A stretch of 64,000 nucleotides of DNA from Actinomycetota bacterium (GTDB lineage Bacteria; Actinomycetota; CADDZG01; JAHWKV01). Shown one piece after another: positions 52,788 to 64,000 of the stretch. The position numbers and the translations under genes were made by a program. Below the pieces are notes generated by a model. That model made no database searches. It worked only from the letters and a program-made list of their open reading frames with translations, and had not been told where the DNA came from. The stretch's first letter is position 1. Each line of letters begins with the position of its first letter. The DNA lies in the NCBI GenBank assembly GCA_030447305.1, contig JAUJPC010000002.1, forward strand, positions 62,001 to 126,000, read 5' to 3'.

Positions 52788-52859
52788 GGGCGCTTAGCTC
52801 AGCGGGAGAGCACTGCCCTTACAAGGCAGGGGTCACTGGTTCGATCCCAGTAGCGCCCA
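52788..52859 (+). tRNA. tRNA-Val (anticodon TAC)
   Basis: Cloverleaf: acceptor GGGCGCT/AGCGCCC, D arm TAGCTCAGCGGGAGAGC, anticodon arm CTGCC-CTTACAA-GGCAG with TAC at positions 34-36, T arm ACTGG-TTCGATC-CCAGT, discriminator A. CCA is not encoded. The integrated element begins directly after it. Confidence 0.95.
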
Positions 52860-53632: not shown

Positions 53633-54127
53633 TCAGTCACAAAACCACCGGACGTTAAACCGAGGATAGGGGGACCACTTATGTCCTCGTCCCGGCCAAC
53701 GCCAAGCCGCCAGAATCCAATCGTCTTCCCCCCGTGACATGACCACCATGACAGGACATGGTATCCGAGCGGACTGAAAGCTCGCGATCTTGCTGAGCGT
53801 ACGTCGATCAAGCTTACTCAGATAGGCAGGTCCGACGGGATGAGTGTGCCAGTCTCCTAGATACGTCTGGAGGCGACCGTGCTGTTGATAGAGCCTCGCA
53901 AGTTCCTCCTCTTGGTACTTGTCGTCCGGCACGAACCTACTTCGATGATGTTCTGCACCGGGACCTGGGCCCACCACGCTCGTCACAACGACTTCTCGAA
54001 ATTGCTCCACCCAATAGCCAAACAGGAGTCCGCCGGTCTCATTAGGAATCTTGTCGTCTGCCTCCGCGGTCATCGCCCTCCAGGCCTCCCCGCTCAACCA
54101 GAGGGTATGGGTTATTTTGCTCCGCAC
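53633..54127 (-). CDS. JAB/MPN metallopeptidase of the conjugation cassette
   Basis: 164 aa. A JAMM metal site is complete: E30 in IPNETGGLLFGYW and H94-x-H96...S104-x-x-D107 in DWHTHPVGPAYLSKLDRRTL. It is close in size and layout to Cap3 of type II CBASS and to the deubiquitinase-like subunits of other bacterial Ubl operons. Its ATG overlaps the end of the E2-E1 gene by 16 bases. The expected role is trimming a modifier precursor or cleaving it from targets. Confidence 0.88.
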   Translation of the reverse strand: MRSKITHTLWLSGEAWRAMTAEADDKIPNETGGLLFGYWVEQFREVVVTSVVGPGPGAEHHRSRFVPDDKYQEEELARLYQQHGRLQTYLGDWHTHPVGPAYLSKLDRRTLSKIASFQSARIPCPVMVVMSRGEDDWILAAWRWPGRGHKWSPYPRFNVRWFCD

Positions 54128-55830
54128 CGAGGGCAGAGCTCATGTTTGTGAAGTCTGTACGTGACCCAGGTCGGTGGAACGGGGCCGTCTTCATTCCTCA
54201 AGCGGAGAACTGCAACATCCCAATCAATGTCTGGGTATCCCTTATCTGACCCTCGGCAGAGCGTCGCGACAGCCGCTCTAACTCCCTCAGCAATCAGCGG
54301 CAGGAGATCGAACGCAAGCCCGGTGAAGGTGGGATCGGCGCAGCCTCTTGGTTGCACAGCCCCTGCCGGATCCGCTGGCGGTAGATCAAAGTCTCCCGAG
54401 GCGAAAGCTGCTCTAGAGCACAACCAGCAACCGTCGGTCTGATCCGGCACGATCCGAACAACTCGACCTCCCCAGGCGCCATAGGTTGCGTCTACAGCGA
54501 CATAGGGGAGGTGACGTTCCCGAGCTTCCTCGCTGAGGAAGTACTGGATCCCGAGCTCAGCCGACGCGTCATAGATCAGGTCGGTCTGTCCTAGAAACGC
54601 TTGCACAAAATCAAGGTCTCGCTTGGATACGGCGCCTTCACCGACGCTTCCCAAGCGCTGCTCAAACCTCGTCACATTCACGAAGGGCCACTGTTGTTCG
54701 ATAAACCGCCCTATCTCGATCTTAGGCACTCCGCAAGCCGGCAAGCCAAGAGGCCACCGTACGCATGTTCCCGGGTCCACGAAGTCGTGATCCGCCAGAC
54801 GCAAACGTCCCACTTGCGCCCGCCCAAACTCGAGAGCACTCGGACCACCAAGGCCGCCGAGTCCTAAGATAGAGATGGTCTTGTCTGGCAGGACCGCCGC
54901 TTCCGGAATTCGGGCTTCAAGATCACCCGGTCCGGCTCGGCCTGCTCGAGCAAAGTAGTAGGCGTCATCCGCCCTTCTCTGCTTTGGTTGCTTAGCGGGT
55001 CGCCACTGAACGGCAAATACCCAACCGTTTCCGCTGCTCCGCCATGTCACCTCTTCAGGAAATAAGACGCCGTACACGTCGAAGACGAACTGTCCAAGGC
55101 GCTGTCGGGCTTCACGCCTCGCTTCCTTATGAACTTCATGCACGGCATGGACGAGACCCTCTGCTGACGGTTCTCGGACTTCCGAAGGCATCCGGAACCA
55201 ACGCGCCCTCAACTCGCGGGAAAAAAGGCCCTCAGGAACCGGATAAGATCCCAAGACCTGCCCATCGCTATCACGGATCTCGGTCACGACCCCTCGTAGA
55301 AGAGCGTCGGACCGCTCCGCGACTCGGAGAAGGAGAGAGCCCCCCAGTGCGTCGTCGGGAATCGCCCAGTCACTATCGACCACGAGGAGCGCGTCACGCT
55401 GGTAGGGGTAGTAATCCGAGAACGGCTCTCCCTGATGCTCCTCTCCGATCGTGAGGTCATCTTCCGACGCCTCAGGCGATCCCAGTCGTAGGACCTTAGG
55501 AACCTGGTGTTCGATGAACCAGGCCAAGCTGTCATCTACTTCCCAGTTGTCAGTGGACCGGCCAATTAGGCACAAGCTGGTGGTAAAGGGGTTCTGGTGA
55601 CGCACTAGCGCCGCGTTCGGAGCTTGTACTTCAAAGCGGAAGAACGGATATAGATCAGGATACGTGGCTACCAGGTTGACTTCTTCTCCGTTCACCACTG
55701 GCCAGAGGTGGAACTGTAGAACCCCGGCCTCCCAAGCGCTTTCACTTCGCTCGTATCGAATGCCGAGGCGATCGAGTTCACTATGTTCCCGTCGGTAGAC
55801 CTCCGGGAACCGATCCCACCAACCATTCAT
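54112..55830 (-). CDS. Fused E2-E1 ubiquitin-type conjugation protein
   Basis: 572 aa. Residues ~1-150 are an E2-like domain (YPDLYPFFRFEVQ, RHQNPFTTSLCLIG with C87 as the likely thioester Cys, then a conserved Trp and SLAWFIEHQV). Residues ~295-572 are a ThiF/E1 adenylation domain: ISILGLGGLGGPS (323-328), LADHDFVDPGTCVRWPLG (Arg358; the usual Asn is not seen), structural CWLC (468/471) and CPRC (566/569) for zinc, and C497 in PRGCADPTFTG as candidate catalytic Cys. The same order and length are found in Cap2 of CBASS. The ATG overlaps the stop of the small peptide gene (TAATG). Confidence 0.9.
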   Translation of the reverse strand: MNGWWDRFPEVYRREHSELDRLGIRYERSESAWEAGVLQFHLWPVVNGEEVNLVATYPDLYPFFRFEVQAPNAALVRHQNPFTTSLCLIGRSTDNWEVDDSLAWFIEHQVPKVLRLGSPEASEDDLTIGEEHQGEPFSDYYPYQRDALLVVDSDWAIPDDALGGSLLLRVAERSDALLRGVVTEIRDSDGQVLGSYPVPEGLFSRELRARWFRMPSEVREPSAEGLVHAVHEVHKEARREARQRLGQFVFDVYGVLFPEEVTWRSSGNGWVFAVQWRPAKQPKQRRADDAYYFARAGRAGPGDLEARIPEAAVLPDKTISILGLGGLGGPSALEFGRAQVGRLRLADHDFVDPGTCVRWPLGLPACGVPKIEIGRFIEQQWPFVNVTRFEQRLGSVGEGAVSKRDLDFVQAFLGQTDLIYDASAELGIQYFLSEEARERHLPYVAVDATYGAWGGRVVRIVPDQTDGCWLCSRAAFASGDFDLPPADPAGAVQPRGCADPTFTGLAFDLLPLIAEGVRAAVATLCRGSDKGYPDIDWDVAVLRLRNEDGPVPPTWVTYRLHKHELCPRCGAK

Positions 55831-55958
55831 TAGCCGACCGGGCGATCCTTGGGAGGTTTCGGGGGCTTATGTGGACCCGGCGGTCCTGGGGGGTCCTTGG
55901 GCTCCTTTGGATCCTTGGGCTCCTTTGGATCCTTGGGCTCTTTCTCTTTATCGGGCAC
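55830..55958 (-). CDS. 42-aa Pro/Lys-rich peptide ending in Gly, candidate modifier
   Basis: GTG 55958 has AAGGAGG eight bases upstream. It encodes VPDKEKEPKDPKEPKDP..., with 16 Pro and 10 Lys in 42 residues, no aromatic residue and no possible beta-grasp fold, ending KPPKDRPVG then stop. The stop shares a base with the ATG of the E2-E1 gene (TAATG), so the peptide is translated first and coupled to it. The longer ATG 56174 version would run into the divergent sigma gene and has no ribosome site, so I reject it. A C-terminal Gly is what an E1 adenylates, and this is the only small product in the cassette. The role as modifier is an inference. Confidence 0.65.
   Translation of the reverse strand: MPDKEKEPKDPKEPKDPKEPKDPPGPPGPHKPPKPPKDRPVG
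55894..55941 (-). repeat. 18-base tandem repeat in the peptide gene
   Basis: TCCTTGGGCTCCTTTGGA is repeated 2.7 times without mismatch (55894-55911, 55912-55929, 55930-55941). It encodes the KEPKDP units, so the peptide can grow or shrink by six residues through slippage. Confidence 0.85.
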
Positions 55959-56090
55959 CTCAAATCCCTCCTTTTCGCTCAGCTCGATGGTCTGCTGTAC
56001 GTATCTCCGCCGGACGGAAGAACTTCCGAACGGCGGCAGAAAACCTTCGTACTTTGTTCGGAATTTCCGCGGACCCTCGGAGATGAAGTA

Positions 56091-56627
56091 GTGGTCGAGA
56101 TGAAGGCTGACGAGGTGGGCCTCACTAGGTTGAGAAGCCTGCTCGTCGCGAGCGCGAGGAAGCAGGGCTTGCACCCGAACGACGTGGAAGACGTGGTTCA
56201 GCAGGCTCTTCTTAAGATCTGGAGGGAGAGGCCACGACCTGGAGCACCCGCGATTGAAATTCGCGCTCAGAGAGCATTACGGGATATTCGCATAGAGTTC
56301 TACCGTCAGCGGTCTCGGCGACAGGGTGAGTATTCAACTCCGGAACCAGGTGAAGACTCTGGAGCTCGTTCCCTTCCAGAAGAACTGGTTTATAAAGAGT
56401 GCGCTTACCAGCTAATCGAGCTCAACGACTTAGTCACACGCATTCTGCCTCCCGACGCCCGAACTTATGCTTTCTTGAAGATGCTCAAGGCGACGGAAGC
56501 TGATATTGCGCGATTGATGGGGTGGTCTGAGAAAAGGGCCGCAGCGGCTCGAGTCCAACTAGGCCGCAAGAAGGGTGAGATCGTACGCGCAGTACTAAAC
56601 GCGCTAACTACCGGTGAGGAGGACTGA
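56091..56627 (+). CDS. ECF-like sigma factor
   Basis: About 178 aa from GTG 56091 (GGAG eight bases upstream; ATG 56100 is the alternative). Region 2: LLVASARKQGLHPNDVEDVVQQALLKIWRER and ALRDIRIEFYRQRSRR. Region 4: LPPDARTYAFLKMLKATEADIARLMGWSEKRAAAARVQLGRKKGEI. The ORF track entry begins 74 codons too early, antisense to the peptide gene. It is divergent from the conjugation cassette with 132 bases between, and could activate it or its own operon. The stop overlaps the next ATG. Confidence 0.78.
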   Translation: MVEMKADEVGLTRLRSLLVASARKQGLHPNDVEDVVQQALLKIWRERPRPGAPAIEIRAQRALRDIRIEFYRQRSRRQGEYSTPEPGEDSGARSLPEELVYKECAYQLIELNDLVTRILPPDARTYAFLKMLKATEADIARLMGWSEKRAAAARVQLGRKKGEIVRAVLNALTTGEED

Positions 56628-58001: not shown

Positions 58002-59087
58002 TCATTCAGACCTTACGTTTTTGCGGTAAAAATCCCCTAGCCCTGATCGCAGGTCATCATTGGCACTAGGGAAAAGATGTCCATATCGGTCGAGAACTAC
58101 TGACGCACTGGAGTGTCCGGCCCACGTCTTGATCGCTTGGACGTGAGCTCCAGTCGCAATCCAAAGGGCAATGGCGGTGTGCCTCAGGTCGTGTACCCGG
58201 AGCGGATCCACCTCTGCGGCCTTAACGGCTGGCAGCCAGACTCGTTGTCGGAAAAGGCCGCGGCGCATAAAGCCTCCTTCTGGGCTGGCAAAGATCAGAT
58301 CTGAGTCTGGGGCACAGAAGCGGTCGATGTGGTTCAACAGCTCGCTGGCGACTTCCGTGGGTATTGGAACGGTCCTGCGACCTGCCCTGGTTTTCGGAGG
58401 TCCCATGGACAAGGTTCGCCCGTCGACCTCCACCAAGATCTCGGCCACCTTCAACTCGGCCGCCTGGGCGTCGAATCGGTCCCTGCGAAGGCCGGCCATC
58501 TCTCCCCAACGAAGTCCCCCGTACGCGCCGATCAATACCAGCGCCCGGTAACGGGGATCGATCGCGTCGGCCAGCTTGTGGATCTCCCGAGGGGTCAAGA
58601 ATCGCATCTCGGAATGTTCGATCTTCGGCAGCGAGATGCCCCGGCACGGACTCTGAGCGATCAGGCCATTCTCGACGGCTACCTTGAGTACCGAAGTCAA
58701 AACGACATACGCCTTCCGAACCGTGGCCGGAGCGAGTTCTGCCGAGAGGTTTGCGACCCAGTGCCGGATCTGAGGAGGGCTGATTTCGTTCAAGGCCATC
58801 TTGCCCAAGTGAGGGAGAAGGTTGTTATCGAGTACGTAGCGGTAACGTGCTCTAGTCGAGGGTCGCAGGTTGACCATGGTTTCCCACCAGAACTCGACCC
58901 ACTCAGCCAGCTCCGTCTTGCCGGCCCGCGGATCGATCCAGGAACCGCTCCCCGTTTCGATGGAGGTTTCGGCCAGAAATCGCTTTGCATCAGCGCGTCG
59001 ACTAAACGTCTTGTGTCGAACCTTGCCGCTCGGGTCGCGGTAGCCGGCCCTCCATTTTTTATTGTTCGTCTGCTCGATCCAGCCCAT
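58002..59087 (-). CDS. int: Tyrosine recombinase integrase
   Basis: 361 aa. An Arm-DNA-binding N-terminus (MGWIEQTNNKKWRAGYRDPSGKVRHKTF), a SAM-like core-binding domain (ELAEWVEFWWETMVNLRPSTRARYRYVLDNNLLPHLG) and the catalytic domain with Arg in GGLRWGEMAGLR, Lys in PPKTRAGRRTVPIP, H299-x-x-R302 in HDLRHTA, H325 in GHSS and Tyr335 in DRYGHL. It should integrate the element at tRNA-Val and, with the adjacent Xis, excise it. Confidence 0.94.
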   Translation of the reverse strand: MGWIEQTNNKKWRAGYRDPSGKVRHKTFSRRADAKRFLAETSIETGSGSWIDPRAGKTELAEWVEFWWETMVNLRPSTRARYRYVLDNNLLPHLGKMALNEISPPQIRHWVANLSAELAPATVRKAYVVLTSVLKVAVENGLIAQSPCRGISLPKIEHSEMRFLTPREIHKLADAIDPRYRALVLIGAYGGLRWGEMAGLRRDRFDAQAAELKVAEILVEVDGRTLSMGPPKTRAGRRTVPIPTEVASELLNHIDRFCAPDSDLIFASPEGGFMRRGLFRQRVWLPAVKAAEVDPLRVHDLRHTAIALWIATGAHVQAIKTWAGHSSASVVLDRYGHLFPSANDDLRSGLGDFYRKNVRSE

Positions 59088-59149: not shown

Positions 59150-59425
59150 CTAGCTCCTCTTTCTCCGGCGCATGGGGGGCATGGGCGGCGGCCTAAGGCA
59201 CTCATTCTCAGGGTCTCCACCCAGACGGGTTGATTCCAGCCACTCTTCAAGGCGGCCCGGTCGGAATCTGAGGTGGCTGCCGAGCTTGAAAGCGCCCATC
59301 TCGCAAGAGTGGCGGTAGACGAAAGAAGGCGCCACGCTCAGAAGGTCGGCGACCTCTTCCACGGTGAGAAGCCTCTCGGTGCGCTCGGGCACCTTCCAGC
59401 CGGCTGAGTACTCCTTTATTTGCAA
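59150..59425 (-). CDS. xis: Excisionase/helix-turn-helix protein
   Basis: 91 aa. A MerR-like helix-turn-helix of the excisionase type: RLLTVEEVADLLSVAPSFVYRHSCEMGAFKLGSHLRFRPGRLEEWLES. The tail is basic (PPPMPPMRRRKRS). Upstream of the integrase on the same strand, the usual place of a recombination directionality factor. Confidence 0.87.
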   Translation of the reverse strand: MQIKEYSAGWKVPERTERLLTVEEVADLLSVAPSFVYRHSCEMGAFKLGSHLRFRPGRLEEWLESTRLGGDPENECLRPPPMPPMRRRKRS

Positions 59426-59441
59426 AGCGATTCACCTCCTT

Positions 59442-60299
59442 TCAGGTACGTAGATTTGTTCTGTTCAGGCCAGAGTCCAACTCGAATAGTGATCTGCGAT
59501 GGCTCTCGTTCACCGGCAGCCATATCGGACCGAGCGGTCGATCAAGGTGCCAATGAAGGAATGACGTGGCGACAGTCAGCCGGGTGGACCTGAGCGCTGG
59601 TCGGGCGGAGCGTTCACGTCTGGTGCTGCTGAAGCAGACCAGCAGTAGTTTAGGCAGGTGAACGGATATCGCGACCTCCTCGTAGTCGACGATCTTGTCC
59701 CTCAGGCACGAGCCGCTTTCCGTGCCTCGATCGAGTTCCAAGAAGAAGTTGGTTTGGGTTTCGCCGAAGCGGAAGATTCCGAGCCCGTCGGGCCGCACGA
59801 CCCCATGGCAGGCCTCCATGCTTGCCCTCTCACCGAGCCAATCGACCAGCTCGATGCCGTTTTGACGGCTGATGTGAATCAGGCGGCAGAAGAACTCGTT
59901 GGTGTCCCGCATGTGCTGCAGACGTGGACTCTTGACCAGATTGGGAGGCCGATTCCTTCGGAAGTAGAGCTTGTCGGCTTCGACATCCCTGATGTCGGAG
60001 ACGATCTCAGCGCCTGCTTTGTCCAAAACGTAGTGCCATGGCCAGGATCCTGGTCTTTTGGGCGGTCTGAAACGGTTGAGCACTCCGATCTGATGAAGTT
60101 GGTGGAGGCGGACGCGAGCCCGTGAATAGCTGGGGAAATGGAGTTGGTAGATCTGGGTGGTCGTAAGGAATCGGTGTTCGTAGATGTCGACGCAGATGTC
60201 GAAGTCCCGCTGGGTGAGCTTGGAGAGGATGGAGATCGAATCCATTTCATATCGCCGAGGCGATATGAAATGAGTCTGGGGTTTGACTGCGCGCCCCAT
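59442..60299 (-). CDS. Replication-relaxation family protein
   Basis: 285 aa. The N-terminus has winged helices of the Replic_Relax family (LTQRDFDICVDIYEHRFLTTTQIYQLHFPSYSRARVRLHQLHQIGVLNRFR, YVLDKAGAEIV). The C-terminal half has FRFGETQTNFFLELDRGTESGSCLRDKIVDYEEV, an E-x-D-x-G/T region. It is thought to act with mobile-element replication or transfer. ATG 60299 shares a base with the TraD-like stop (TGATG). A 30-base palindrome lies within its first codons. Confidence 0.83.
   Translation of the reverse strand: MGRAVKPQTHFISPRRYEMDSISILSKLTQRDFDICVDIYEHRFLTTTQIYQLHFPSYSRARVRLHQLHQIGVLNRFRPPKRPGSWPWHYVLDKAGAEIVSDIRDVEADKLYFRRNRPPNLVKSPRLQHMRDTNEFFCRLIHISRQNGIELVDWLGERASMEACHGVVRPDGLGIFRFGETQTNFFLELDRGTESGSCLRDKIVDYEEVAISVHLPKLLLVCFSSTRRERSARPALRSTRLTVATSFLHWHLDRPLGPIWLPVNESHRRSLFELDSGLNRTNLRT
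60243..60272. repeat. Perfect 14-base inverted repeat
   Basis: CATTTCATATCGCC-ga-GGCGATATGAAATG is perfect over both arms. It sits at codons ~10-19 of the replication-relaxation gene, and its last bases contain the alternative ATG 60245. Confidence 0.95.
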
Positions 60300-62869
60300 C
60301 AGGCTTCCTCAGGCACAGGCTTGTGCGATGCCTCCCCGCGCAGCCGCCGCTGCGCGCCATGCTGATCCCCATACTGCGCGTCATGGTGCGCGCCATGCTG
60401 ATTCGGGCCAGACCCACGTTGACCGTCCGTCGGCTTCGCCGGCAGCAACTGCGTCGTTGCATTTCGCTGGCGGCTACGGATGTTCTCTTCTACCTGCTGC
60501 CTAGAGACGGCGAACAGCTCGGCGCTCCGTCGTCGCACTCGCGTCGCTCGGTCTTCCGACCCTTCGGCTAGCGGAACCGTTTTGAAGGTGAAGGCTCGGC
60601 CGTGGCCTCCATTGATGCTTGGTCGGCAAGCCGCCTGAAATGCCGCAAGGTGACTGAGGTCGTGGGCAGATAGGTCGGGGGAGTAATGCCGCTCCAATTG
60701 GTGCGCATCCTCGGGTGAAACCGCAAATGTGACCTTGGTCCGGGCGTTGGCCCCCAAAGCCTCCCGCATGTCTCGAGGAAGCTGGCCCATGTGCTGATGC
60801 GCCAGGACCAGCGACAGGTGGTAGCCGCGGGCCTCGGCGAGTAGATCCTCGAAAGACCTGGGCAGTGACATGTAGTTGTGCATCTCGTCGACATATAGGG
60901 TGGTGTCCGGCCGCATGTCATCGGGCAGACCGATTCGTTTCATGCAGGCCTGCCAAACTCGAGCTACGACGAAGCCGCCGAGAAGCCGGGAGGTCTCGTC
61001 CCCGAGAGTCCCTTTCGGAATACGGACAAGGATCAGTCCACCGCGCTCGAGCAGAGTCTCGAAGCTGCGCCTGGGACGAGGCTGACCGATGATTACCCGG
61101 GAGGGTCCCCGTAACAGGACCGCTCTTAGCTTGTTGAGCAGGCCTGATATTTGCTCGTTGCGAAGCCGCTCCGGCAGCTTGTCGTACCAGGTCCAAAAGT
61201 CGCTCAGGCCAACGACATGGCGAAGCCTAAAGTTCACCTCTCGCCGCCAATCGGGATTTGTCAGCAGCAAGGGGATCTCAGTAACCGTGGCCCCGGGTAT
61301 GTGCCTCAAGGTCAGACAGCAGGCCCGCATGATGTCGTCGGTGCGCGGACCCCACCATGGCTCAAAGATTCGGCGGAACACCCCAACCGCCTGCTCGACA
61401 ACCAGATCGTCTCCGCCACCGCCTAGCAGGTCGAGGCCTACCGCGAAGTCGGGGTCGTCGGGATCGATCAGGCACGTCCGCTCCTCCGCGCCGGGCGGCA
61501 GTCGCTCAATTATCGATTCGACTAGGTCACCTTTGGGATCGATCACGACCGCCGCCCGAGAGTTGGCCGCGTCCTGCAGGACCATCTGTGCCATCAGGGT
61601 CGATTTGCCGGTACCCGTTTCGCCGATGAGGTGCAGGTGATGCCGTGCATCCGGCACGGAGATCGCCACGACTCTTTCGCGTAGGGACGGATGGTCCGCC
61701 CGGCCCAGCACCTTCCCGGAAGTAGGCAGCATGGATGAGGGAGGTGCAGTCCTTGCGCCGGCCACCTCAAGACCAGGAACTGTTCCTGCTGACTGGAGTG
61801 TGGCTATCTCGGCAAGTTCTGGGACCGAGAGCAGGTAGCCCTTTGCGAGGCGATGATCTGCCAGAGCCCGGCTGCCGCAGAGAATCCGTCGCCGCCGAAA
61901 GCCGTTCCGGCCCTCGAAAACAGCGAACGATCCGGCGAGCGCATGCAGTCGCCCGCGGGCCTGCTGACCAGTTGGAGATGAGGCGCTTACCCGGACCAGA
62001 CACTCGAACAAGGGGGAAGACGCCTTTTCCAAGACCGCACGGATGTCCGATTCGGCGGCTGGGTCCGGCACAACACGAAGATGGTGGCCGGAGGCGCCGT
62101 TATGGGCCTGCCCCCTAGAGTTGACTCGCAGACGTTTCGCCGCTCCTAGCAGACGGCCTCTCGATTTCGAGGTTGTGGGCCGAGCTAGCACCTGAACAGT
62201 GGCACTCTCCTCAGACTCTAGGCCGGTCATTGCCGCAAGCACGAGACGGAAGGAGTCGTTGGTAGGACCGGAGCCGATCGGGAACCAGTCATCATTGGCC
62301 AGGGTGAGAGCGGTGACCTCGGTACGGCATCGGCCCGGCGCGGGGTTGGTCGAGCCGGCGGTAGCGTGTGAGCCGGGCCAGGCGGCTTCTACTGCACGTT
62401 CGACCAGACCAGGGGGCACTGAGCTTGGCACCCACAAAACAAAGCTGATCTGCTCGCCAGCTGCCCTCACTTCCCAGCAGACGTGAGGTTGGCCAAACAG
62501 AGATCGGGCGATCCGCGGTCTTAGAAGGGAATGAAGCCCCATCCAAAAAGCAAGCCCTCCCTTGGGGTCGGATTCCACAGGAGGCAGGATGGAGATGGAC
62601 CGTCCGTGCGACGAGCCGATTCGATTGCGACCCAAGCGAGCGATGGTGCTGAGTCCAATGGTGATGGTCACACCTGCCGCCGTCGCAAGCAGCCACGGCA
62701 CTGTCTGGCGAAGCCAGATGAAGGCATCGGCCCTTAATCCTTCGGGATTCTCAATCACGCTGGTGATCCACCGGGAGAGCTGCTCTTCAACCATCGCTAA
62801 GACCGCTACGTGCCGGAGCGCAGTTAAGCTTTCGCCGGACTGTGTGATCGGATGCAGCGAACCCCTCAA
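60299..62869 (-). CDS. Type IV coupling-protein-like ATPase (TraD/TraG type)
   Basis: 856 aa. A membrane helix near residue 60 (VPWLLATAAGVTITIGLS), a ~350-residue N-terminal region, then the P-loop ATPase: LHLIGETGTGKSTLMAQ (Walker A), VVIDPKGDLVESI, TLYVDEMHNYMSLPRSFEDLLAEARGY (Walker B) and VLAHQHMGQLP. It should feed DNA to the transfer channel at the membrane. The C-terminal ~60 residues are His/Gln-rich with imperfect repeats (HGAHHDAQYGDQHGAQ). It overlaps both neighbours by one to four bases. Confidence 0.9.
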   Translation of the reverse strand: MRGSLHPITQSGESLTALRHVAVLAMVEEQLSRWITSVIENPEGLRADAFIWLRQTVPWLLATAAGVTITIGLSTIARLGRNRIGSSHGRSISILPPVESDPKGGLAFWMGLHSLLRPRIARSLFGQPHVCWEVRAAGEQISFVLWVPSSVPPGLVERAVEAAWPGSHATAGSTNPAPGRCRTEVTALTLANDDWFPIGSGPTNDSFRLVLAAMTGLESEESATVQVLARPTTSKSRGRLLGAAKRLRVNSRGQAHNGASGHHLRVVPDPAAESDIRAVLEKASSPLFECLVRVSASSPTGQQARGRLHALAGSFAVFEGRNGFRRRRILCGSRALADHRLAKGYLLSVPELAEIATLQSAGTVPGLEVAGARTAPPSSMLPTSGKVLGRADHPSLRERVVAISVPDARHHLHLIGETGTGKSTLMAQMVLQDAANSRAAVVIDPKGDLVESIIERLPPGAEERTCLIDPDDPDFAVGLDLLGGGGDDLVVEQAVGVFRRIFEPWWGPRTDDIMRACCLTLRHIPGATVTEIPLLLTNPDWRREVNFRLRHVVGLSDFWTWYDKLPERLRNEQISGLLNKLRAVLLRGPSRVIIGQPRPRRSFETLLERGGLILVRIPKGTLGDETSRLLGGFVVARVWQACMKRIGLPDDMRPDTTLYVDEMHNYMSLPRSFEDLLAEARGYHLSLVLAHQHMGQLPRDMREALGANARTKVTFAVSPEDAHQLERHYSPDLSAHDLSHLAAFQAACRPSINGGHGRAFTFKTVPLAEGSEDRATRVRRRSAELFAVSRQQVEENIRSRQRNATTQLLPAKPTDGQRGSGPNQHGAHHDAQYGDQHGAQRRLRGEASHKPVPEEA

Positions 62870-63417
62870 CGGCTAAAGCCGATGTGAAGATGCCTGCCGT
62901 GATCCTTGGTGAACGAGTACATACCGGCCGCCTCGATCCGCCAGGGGCCGCCCAGCTCGTCGGGTCTGAGCGGTGGCGCCAGCGACGCCACCAACCGGGC
63001 CGCGGCGTACGCCCGGTGGTTGTTCACGCTGACCGGAACTTGGTCGATCACGCTGATATCCACCGCCCGGCCCGGTATGTGATTCGAGACCCGGTTGGTG
63101 CCCTTAACGAAGTAGGAGTGGCCGGAGGAAAGGGGGCCGACCCGGTTGAGTTCGTGGTGCTGAGCCAGCAGCAACAAAACCTGCAGGACCCGGGGGTCTG
63201 TTCTCGCCGCCTCGACGTCGCCCCGGGCTGCCGTCGTGAGGTGAATTCTCGGGTGGGCAAGTACCTGGGACTCGAGGGTGCCGGAGCCGAGATCGAACTG
63301 CGCTTGGGCGTCTGCAAAGCCAGGGGCAAACTGGGGCGGCGCAGCAGCTCCCACTCCGGCGAGGGCGAAGACGGGGACGACCAGAAGACTCGCTATGCAG
63401 AGGGCTAGCTTTTTCAT
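62866..63417 (-). CDS. Secreted M15-like peptidase
   Basis: 183 aa with a signal peptide (MKKLALCIASLLVVPVFALAGVGAAA). The C-terminal domain has SGHSYFVKGTNRVSNHIPGRAVDIS and DHGRHLHIGF, giving the H-x6-D and H-x-H zinc pattern of M15/VanY-like D-Ala-D-Ala peptidases. Position between VirB4 and the coupling protein suggests a wall-opening enzyme for the transfer machine. Confidence 0.78.
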   Translation of the reverse strand: MKKLALCIASLLVVPVFALAGVGAAAPPQFAPGFADAQAQFDLGSGTLESQVLAHPRIHLTTAARGDVEAARTDPRVLQVLLLLAQHHELNRVGPLSSGHSYFVKGTNRVSNHIPGRAVDISVIDQVPVSVNNHRAYAAARLVASLAPPLRPDELGGPWRIEAAGMYSFTKDHGRHLHIGFSR

Positions 63418-64000
63418 CCCCCCGCCTCCTCGGCGGCTGCCAGCTCGGCCGGATTCGAGGTCACCAGAGCGTGCTCTTGGGCAGAGGCGATCACCTCAAG
63501 AGTTGCCCGCTCGGATCCCAGGCAGAGCAGCCCCCGCCCGGCCGGGCAAGCCCCTAGGTAGGAGGTTTCACCCTTAGAGAGGTCGAACGCCTCGGCCAAG
63601 GCTTTGAGCGACTGAGGATGTTGACCCAGCAGGATCTGCATCGAGGCGTTGGTGAGTACGGTGCGGCCAATGTCGCTCGACAGGGCGTCCCGCACGTCCT
63701 GGGTGATGGTTGTCAGGCCGCACCAGTACTTGCGGGAAGAGCGAGCCAGCCGCTCTAAGAACCGAGCTCCCGCCTCCGACTGAAGCATCAACCACGCCTC
63801 GTCCACCACCACGATGCGCTTCTTGAGCTCTCCTCGGCACACCCGGCCCCAGATGGTGTCGAGAGCGATCATGGTGGCGGCCCCCTTGAGCTCCTGGGGA
63901 ATGTCCCGAAGCGAAAAGACGACCAGGTGGCCGGTTGGGTCGGTGGTGGTCGGCCCGTCGAACAACCCCCGGTGCGACCCCGATGTAAACGGCTCGAGGC
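63414..64000 (-). CDS. VirB4-like conjugation ATPase (N-terminus beyond right edge)
   Basis: The frame is open to the right edge: LEPFTSGSHRGLFDGPTTTD precedes the first in-frame start of the ORF track. It shows LVVFSLRDIPQELKGAATMIALDTIW, the Walker B segment KKRIVVVDEAWLML, RSSRKYWCGLTTITQDVRDAL (motif with Gln) and LLGQHPQSLKAL. This is the C-terminal part of a VirB4/TraE ATPase, which powers the type IV channel. Overlaps the peptidase ATG by four bases. Confidence 0.9.
   Translation of the reverse strand, partial: LEPFTSGSHRGLFDGPTTTDPTGHLVVFSLRDIPQELKGAATMIALDTIWGRVCRGELKKRIVVVDEAWLMLQSEAGARFLERLARSSRKYWCGLTTITQDVRDALSSDIGRTVLTNASMQILLGQHPQSLKALAEAFDLSKGETSYLGACPAGRGLLCLGSERATLEVIASAQEHALVTSNPAELAAAEEAGG

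Follow-up and report, generated by a model that had tools for sequence, protein, structure and literature searches.

A proposed MOBC transfer origin located within the coupling-protein and relaxase genes of an actinobacterial integrative conjugative element

Genes and features of the locus

The window analysed here is the whole 64-kb stretch of DNA, in which genes for a VirB4/TraG-like ATPase, a small protein, a coupling protein, a PF13814 protein, an HTH_17 protein and a tyrosine integrase follow one another in this order on the minus strand (Table 1). The order resembles the compact relaxase-excisionase-integrase arrangement preceded by a coupling protein that has been described earlier (PMC5357655). 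Exact copies of a 28-bp repeat derived from the tRNA-Val 3' end are found at distances of 62 kb and 68 kb, and the region is therefore an integrative conjugative element. The element is about 62 kb long and contains an integrase, a relaxase, a coupling protein, the ATPase of a type IV secretion system (the system being judged from these genes) and flanking att repeats. A third copy of the tRNA-Val att repeat marks off a 5.7-kb segment adjoining the element (repeats at G000 C2:177084-177111 and 182782-182809), and this segment may be another small element or a remnant.

Table 1. Positions in the window of the genes and sequence features discussed in the text
Feature	Positions	Strand	Remarks
tRNA-Val 3' end, 28 bp, attachment-site repeat	52832..52859	+	exact copies 62 kb and 68 kb further along the contig
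Tyrosine integrase of the element	58002..59087	-	
HTH_17 protein, excisionase candidate	59150..59425	-	
PF13814 (Replic_Relax) gene, MOBC relaxase candidate	59442..60299	-	285 aa; wHTH and PD-(D/E)XK-like domain
Palindrome (14+2+14 inverted repeat), proposed hairpin arm of the oriT	60243..60272	.	relaxase codons 10-19, counting from the ATG at 60299
AGTCTGGG, candidate nick region	60273..60280	+	reverse complement of the conserved core CCC(C/A)GACT; adjoins the palindrome
Four 12-bp tandem repeats, proposed relaxase binding site	60350..60397	.	CTGCGCGCCATG CTGATCCCCATA CTGCGCGTCATG GTGCGCGCCATG
Degenerate fifth 12-bp unit	60398-60409		
VirD4/TrwB-like coupling protein gene	60299..62869	-	start uncertain; 3' end contains the repeats; stop overlaps the relaxase ATG
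VirB4/TraG-like ATPase gene	63414..64000	-	runs beyond the window end

The relaxase candidate and its start codon

The product of the PF13814 gene matches its profile with 128 bits (E 5.8e-37, cut-off 25.3). PF13814 represents the MobC (MOBC) superfamily of relaxases (PMC5357655), and MOBC relaxases are akin to restriction enzymes of the PD-(D/E)XK type (PMC12857230). The AlphaFold2 model of the protein (pLDDT 88) has a disordered tail of low confidence at residues 1-17 and an N-terminal winged helix-turn-helix, for which MarR-type structural matches were obtained (best E 1.6e-3). The fold search with the whole model matched the winged helix only, and the C-terminal domain was therefore modelled separately (pLDDT 91); its structural matches were weak (E at least 0.02) and included PaqCI, Cap4, EndoMS and BamHI. 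The predicted PD-(D/E)XK nuclease domain has conserved acidic residues (P170, D171, E188 and D190 invariant, K202 nearly so). When PF13814, PF03432 and PF08751 were searched, it was the only relaxase candidate detected in the element, the latter two families being absent from the genome. The same genome has 12 PF13814 matches in all, and seemingly decayed copies carrying a frameshift, internal stops or a truncation are present at G000 C1:80350-80920, C3:173822-174620 and C4:458368-459187 (L032, L034 and L033, respectively).

A GAGGA ribosome-binding site serves the ATG at 60299, and this ATG overlaps the stop codon of the coupling-protein gene. A second ATG at 60245 has no ribosome-binding site, and the nearest relative (G004, locus L003) has no start codon matching it. 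The earlier suggestion of a hairpin that gates translation between these two starts thus finds no support.

The inverted repeat

The inverted repeat reads CATTTCATATCGCC-GA-GGCGATATGAAATG, and its arms (60243-60256 and 60259-60272) are complementary in 14 of 14 pairs. The central GA does not pair with itself, so that this is a 14+2+14 inverted repeat and not strictly a perfect 30-base palindrome; the original prediction had described it as perfect, and had placed it correctly at 60243-60272 inside the replication-relaxation gene. Among the short-loop inverted repeats of the window it is the longest, the runner-up having arms of 10 bp, and its GC content is 43% as compared to 63% in the window. 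From base composition, about 0.005 inverted repeats with arms of at least 14 bp and loops of 0-8 are expected per 64-kb window, which agrees with the earlier view that it is unlikely to have arisen by chance. Only one of 4812 null 24-bp bins taken from related loci equalled its score. When 3 mismatches were allowed, the palindrome still had no second copy elsewhere in the genome, and an Rfam search at the site gave no match. Neither a sigma-70-like promoter nor a terminator was found at the palindrome, the sigma-70-like promoter model being a weak test in this organism.

Tandem repeats and a conserved core at fixed distances

The palindrome, which had been noted alone before, is one of three linked parts. 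The 12-bp tandem repeats are about 80 bp from it and fall within the 3' end of the coupling-protein gene; their distance from the palindrome centre is ~116 bp. The third part is a short core with a consensus like CCCCGACT. In the window it reads CCCAGACT and its end abuts the palindrome start, so that on the plus strand the palindrome is followed by AGTCTGGG. The repeats are 75-122 bp from this candidate core, and measured in this way the tandem direct repeats would lie ~70-120 bp from the nick.

Related loci were found with an alignment query; a single-protein scan of genome contigs gave nothing, and order-level genome searches for further loci yielded none that were new. Repeats with a 12-bp period (p<=0.005) were present in 26 of ~90 distinct loci, and in these the arrays nearly always begin 188-250 nt upstream of the arginine codon of a conserved LTxRD motif. 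The repeat units are unrelated between loci (GGAGCGTTCCGT, TTTTCGGGGGCC and others). Measured from the repeat centre, the bin +112..+136 bp holds a palindrome with a score of at least 7 in 10 of these 26 loci, as compared to 0-4 loci for each other bin. For the test bin +104..+128 the enrichment over the 26 loci corresponds to a binomial p of about 5e-7 against a null of 5%, p-values that are optimistic because the loci are related.

The most frequent 6-mer between the repeats and the gene is CCCGAC; both CCCGAC and CCGACT are strand-biased and less common in control regions. At +90..+120 bp, 20 of 43 repeat-bearing loci match CCCCGACT in at least 7/8 positions, as compared to 0-3 loci for other bins; on the reverse strand none of the 43 has a match at this distance. 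It should be noted here that the motif was first spotted by eye in loci later used for counting, and that the 20 core-bearing loci include relatives and come to about nine groups by count. A weak core is seen in L003, L004 and L005. In the various lineages, enrichment of palindrome and core is confined to these spacings from the repeats, and the sequence of the repeats varies freely. In a set of related loci (L071, L078, L080, L064 and L067), 12-bp repeats occur together with a perfect AACCCCGACT(C/G)TAT core in the absence of a clear palindrome, and a conserved GTGATTGTG(C/T)ATGACTGC stretch follows.

Palindromes of unrelated sequence in relatives

The relaxase genes of relatives contain palindromes of unrelated sequence at the matching position, namely GGTTCTGTTGCGCTTAAGCGCACCAGAACC with one mismatch in G004, TACTTTGTGGATGCATAGGCATCCACAAAGTA in G001 and, in the same genome, AATCTGTATTGCCTAACCGATACAGATT in a decayed PF13814 copy; weaker palindromes are present there in G016 and G046. 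The original prediction had proposed to look for the palindrome in close relatives with the same gene: its sequence is missing from them, and a palindrome of different sequence occupies the same position. An inverted repeat with arms of 14 bp, conserved in its position, stands beside the putative nick region. Between two Actinoplanes loci (L079 and L083) both arms have changed in a compensatory manner (AGCTTCC/GGAAGCT versus AGTTTCC/GGAAACT). The amino acids encoded at the palindrome are not conserved among relatives, and therefore constraint on the protein is no explanation for it. Many relatives having the repeats and the core show no clear palindrome; this, together with the free divergence of the inverted repeat, points to a hairpin that is recognised by its shape or that some lineages can do without.

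Comparison with known MOBC and other systems

Plasmid pAM373, typed as MOBC by PLSDB, was examined after the model was formed and served as an independent check. The stretch separating its coupling-protein gene from its PF13814 gene contains five tandem repeats of 12 bp and a perfect inverted repeat of 25 bp, and CCTGAC is found 104 bp from the repeat centre, an offset equal to that of the core here. Four further plasmids of Enterococcus and one from Listeria seeligeri have the same order with 11- or 12-bp repeats; the repeat sequences differ and the inverted repeat is related. In the Enterococcus plasmids the core is 104 bp (12-bp arrays) or 87.5-88.5 bp (11-bp arrays) from the repeat centre, and in the Listeria seeligeri plasmid, which has a longer array, it is 145 bp away when measured from the first four units. 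The order coupling protein, 12-bp (or 11-bp) repeats, CCTGAC core, inverted repeat and PF13814 gene of the Enterococcus MOBC plasmids is thus similar to that described here, and the distances agree. However, the site in pAM373 is intergenic whereas the present one overlaps two genes, and the inverted repeat of pAM373 is longer and contains the core, which here lies just outside the palindrome. The sequence of the inverted repeat is conserved between the Enterococcus and Listeria plasmids (CCTGACCATTTT), but the palindrome arms here diverge completely; that sequence was not found here, and only CCNGAC is common to both. As the repeats of pAM373 are intergenic and yet also 12 bp long, the 12-bp period is not merely an effect of coding.

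Francia and Clewell are said to have reported in 2002 that nic of pAD1 lies within an inverted repeat and that the repeats determine specificity. The pAD1 relaxase TraX binds five direct repeats located ~70-120 bp downstream of nic according to a review (PMC12857230), a distance similar to the one separating repeats and candidate core here. In ICESt3 the MOBT oriT has a binding site ~70 bp from the nick, which is bound by the N-terminal HTH of the relaxase (PMC12857230); the catalytic domain of that relaxase, however, is of a different family (Rep_trans). Streptococcal IMEs of IME_Class_8 also combine a VirD4 coupling protein, a PF13814/MobC relaxase and an integrase in a compact module (PMC5357655), but they have a serine integrase and are mobilizable, whereas the present element has a tyrosine integrase and genes for a type IV secretion system. 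The architecture is absent at the corresponding place in four Streptomycetaceae plasmid loci (Embleya/Streptomyces), and hence it is not universal in PF13814 elements. CloDF13 (NC_002119) was considered as a second MOBC yardstick, and no clear mobC is named in its annotation.

The palindrome as part of a transfer origin

The palindrome is very probably the hairpin part of a MOBC oriT that serves the element's own relaxase and is compacted into coding sequence. The proposed oriT extends from about 60243 to 60409 and consists of the palindrome, the adjoining core, a spacer of about 70 bp and the 12-bp repeats. The original prediction had mentioned part of a replication or transfer origin among its possibilities, and as a transfer origin this is strongly supported by the linked repeats, the core, the spacing and the relaxase. 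After excision, the relaxase would bind the 12-bp repeats through its winged helix-turn-helix, the repeat sequence determining the specificity of the element. The hairpin would present the core for nicking, with the PD-(D/E)XK domain acting 75-120 bp from the repeats, and the nicked strand would be handed to the VirD4-like coupling protein. We infer that the palindrome acts as DNA, and likewise the binding, the nicking and the choice of strand.

It could be argued that the palindrome is a transcriptional operator only, through which a dimeric winged-helix protein, either the relaxase or another regulator, controls the relaxase-excisionase-integrase genes. The relaxase does have a MarR-like winged helix, and palindromes that are fixed in position and diverge in sequence would fit operators co-evolving with their protein. 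However, there is no sigma-70-like promoter nearby, which is a weak test in this organism, and an operator alone would leave the 12-bp repeats ~116 bp away, the intervening core and the layout of pAM373 unexplained. As the sole function this is unlikely; as a second role the operator of the original prediction may coexist with oriT function.

Control of relaxase translation or of start choice by an mRNA hairpin is very unlikely. The RNA of the region does form a stable fold (-39.3 kcal/mol over 106 nt, z -3.7), but the stem starts 27 nt past a start codon that is served by a good ribosome-binding site, no such site accompanies the second ATG, the nearest relative lacks a start codon there, the fixed spacing to the repeats is left unexplained and Rfam gave no match. 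Even less can be said for an origin of replication of the excised element instead of transfer, which we regard as extremely improbable: MOBC relaxases have been discussed among multifunctional rolling-circle initiators (PMC5714925) and the Pfam name of PF13814 mentions replication, but the layout matches that of conjugative MOBC plasmids at the coupling-protein/relaxase junction. A dual role in replication and transfer is possible and would be compatible with oriT. A single palindrome could by itself be luck, but with about 0.005 expected per window, independent palindromes at the matching place in relatives, and an encoded peptide that is unconserved and predicted to be disordered, the likelihood of chance or of a by-product of the peptide is practically nil.

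Most likely the unusual feature of this element is that the proposed oriT lies inside the genes for the very proteins using it, in a layout resembling the one seen in a conjugative plasmid of Enterococcus. The searchable literature yielded no description of an oriT for a MOBC element of Actinobacteria, and we know of no nick mapped in any actinobacterial MOBC element. According to a mobilome survey, the relaxases identified in Actinobacteria until then were of the MOBF and MOBQ families only (PMC8190616). The layout can be put as a rule, with 12-bp tandem repeats, a CCNGAC core at ~90-110 bp from the middle of the array and a hairpin at ~115-125 bp, at the coupling-protein/relaxase junction. 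Such a rule could allow prediction of oriT in elements missed by similarity searches; the layout also points to a precise candidate nick and to a way in which element-specific transfer may evolve. It is a tentative and somewhat doubtful generalisation that there is an actinobacterial MOBC lineage whose transfer origin runs through two protein-coding genes, whose relaxase reads the shape of the hairpin and a short CCNGAC core, and in which drift of palindrome and repeats gives each element its own specificity.

Other genes of the element

Near one end of the element, a gene for a JAB-type peptidase (53633-54127, minus strand) adjoins one for a ThiF/E1-E2-like protein (54112-55830, minus strand). 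The pair makes up a ubiquitin-like conjugation module resembling the CBASS Cap2/Cap3 or Bil-type antiphage genes. Beside it is an ORF of 114 aa (55830-56174, minus strand) with a repetitive KEPKDPKEPKDP tail at its end; PADLOC and NCBIfam searches with this ORF gave no match, and its product could be the protein conjugated by the E1-E2/JAB module.
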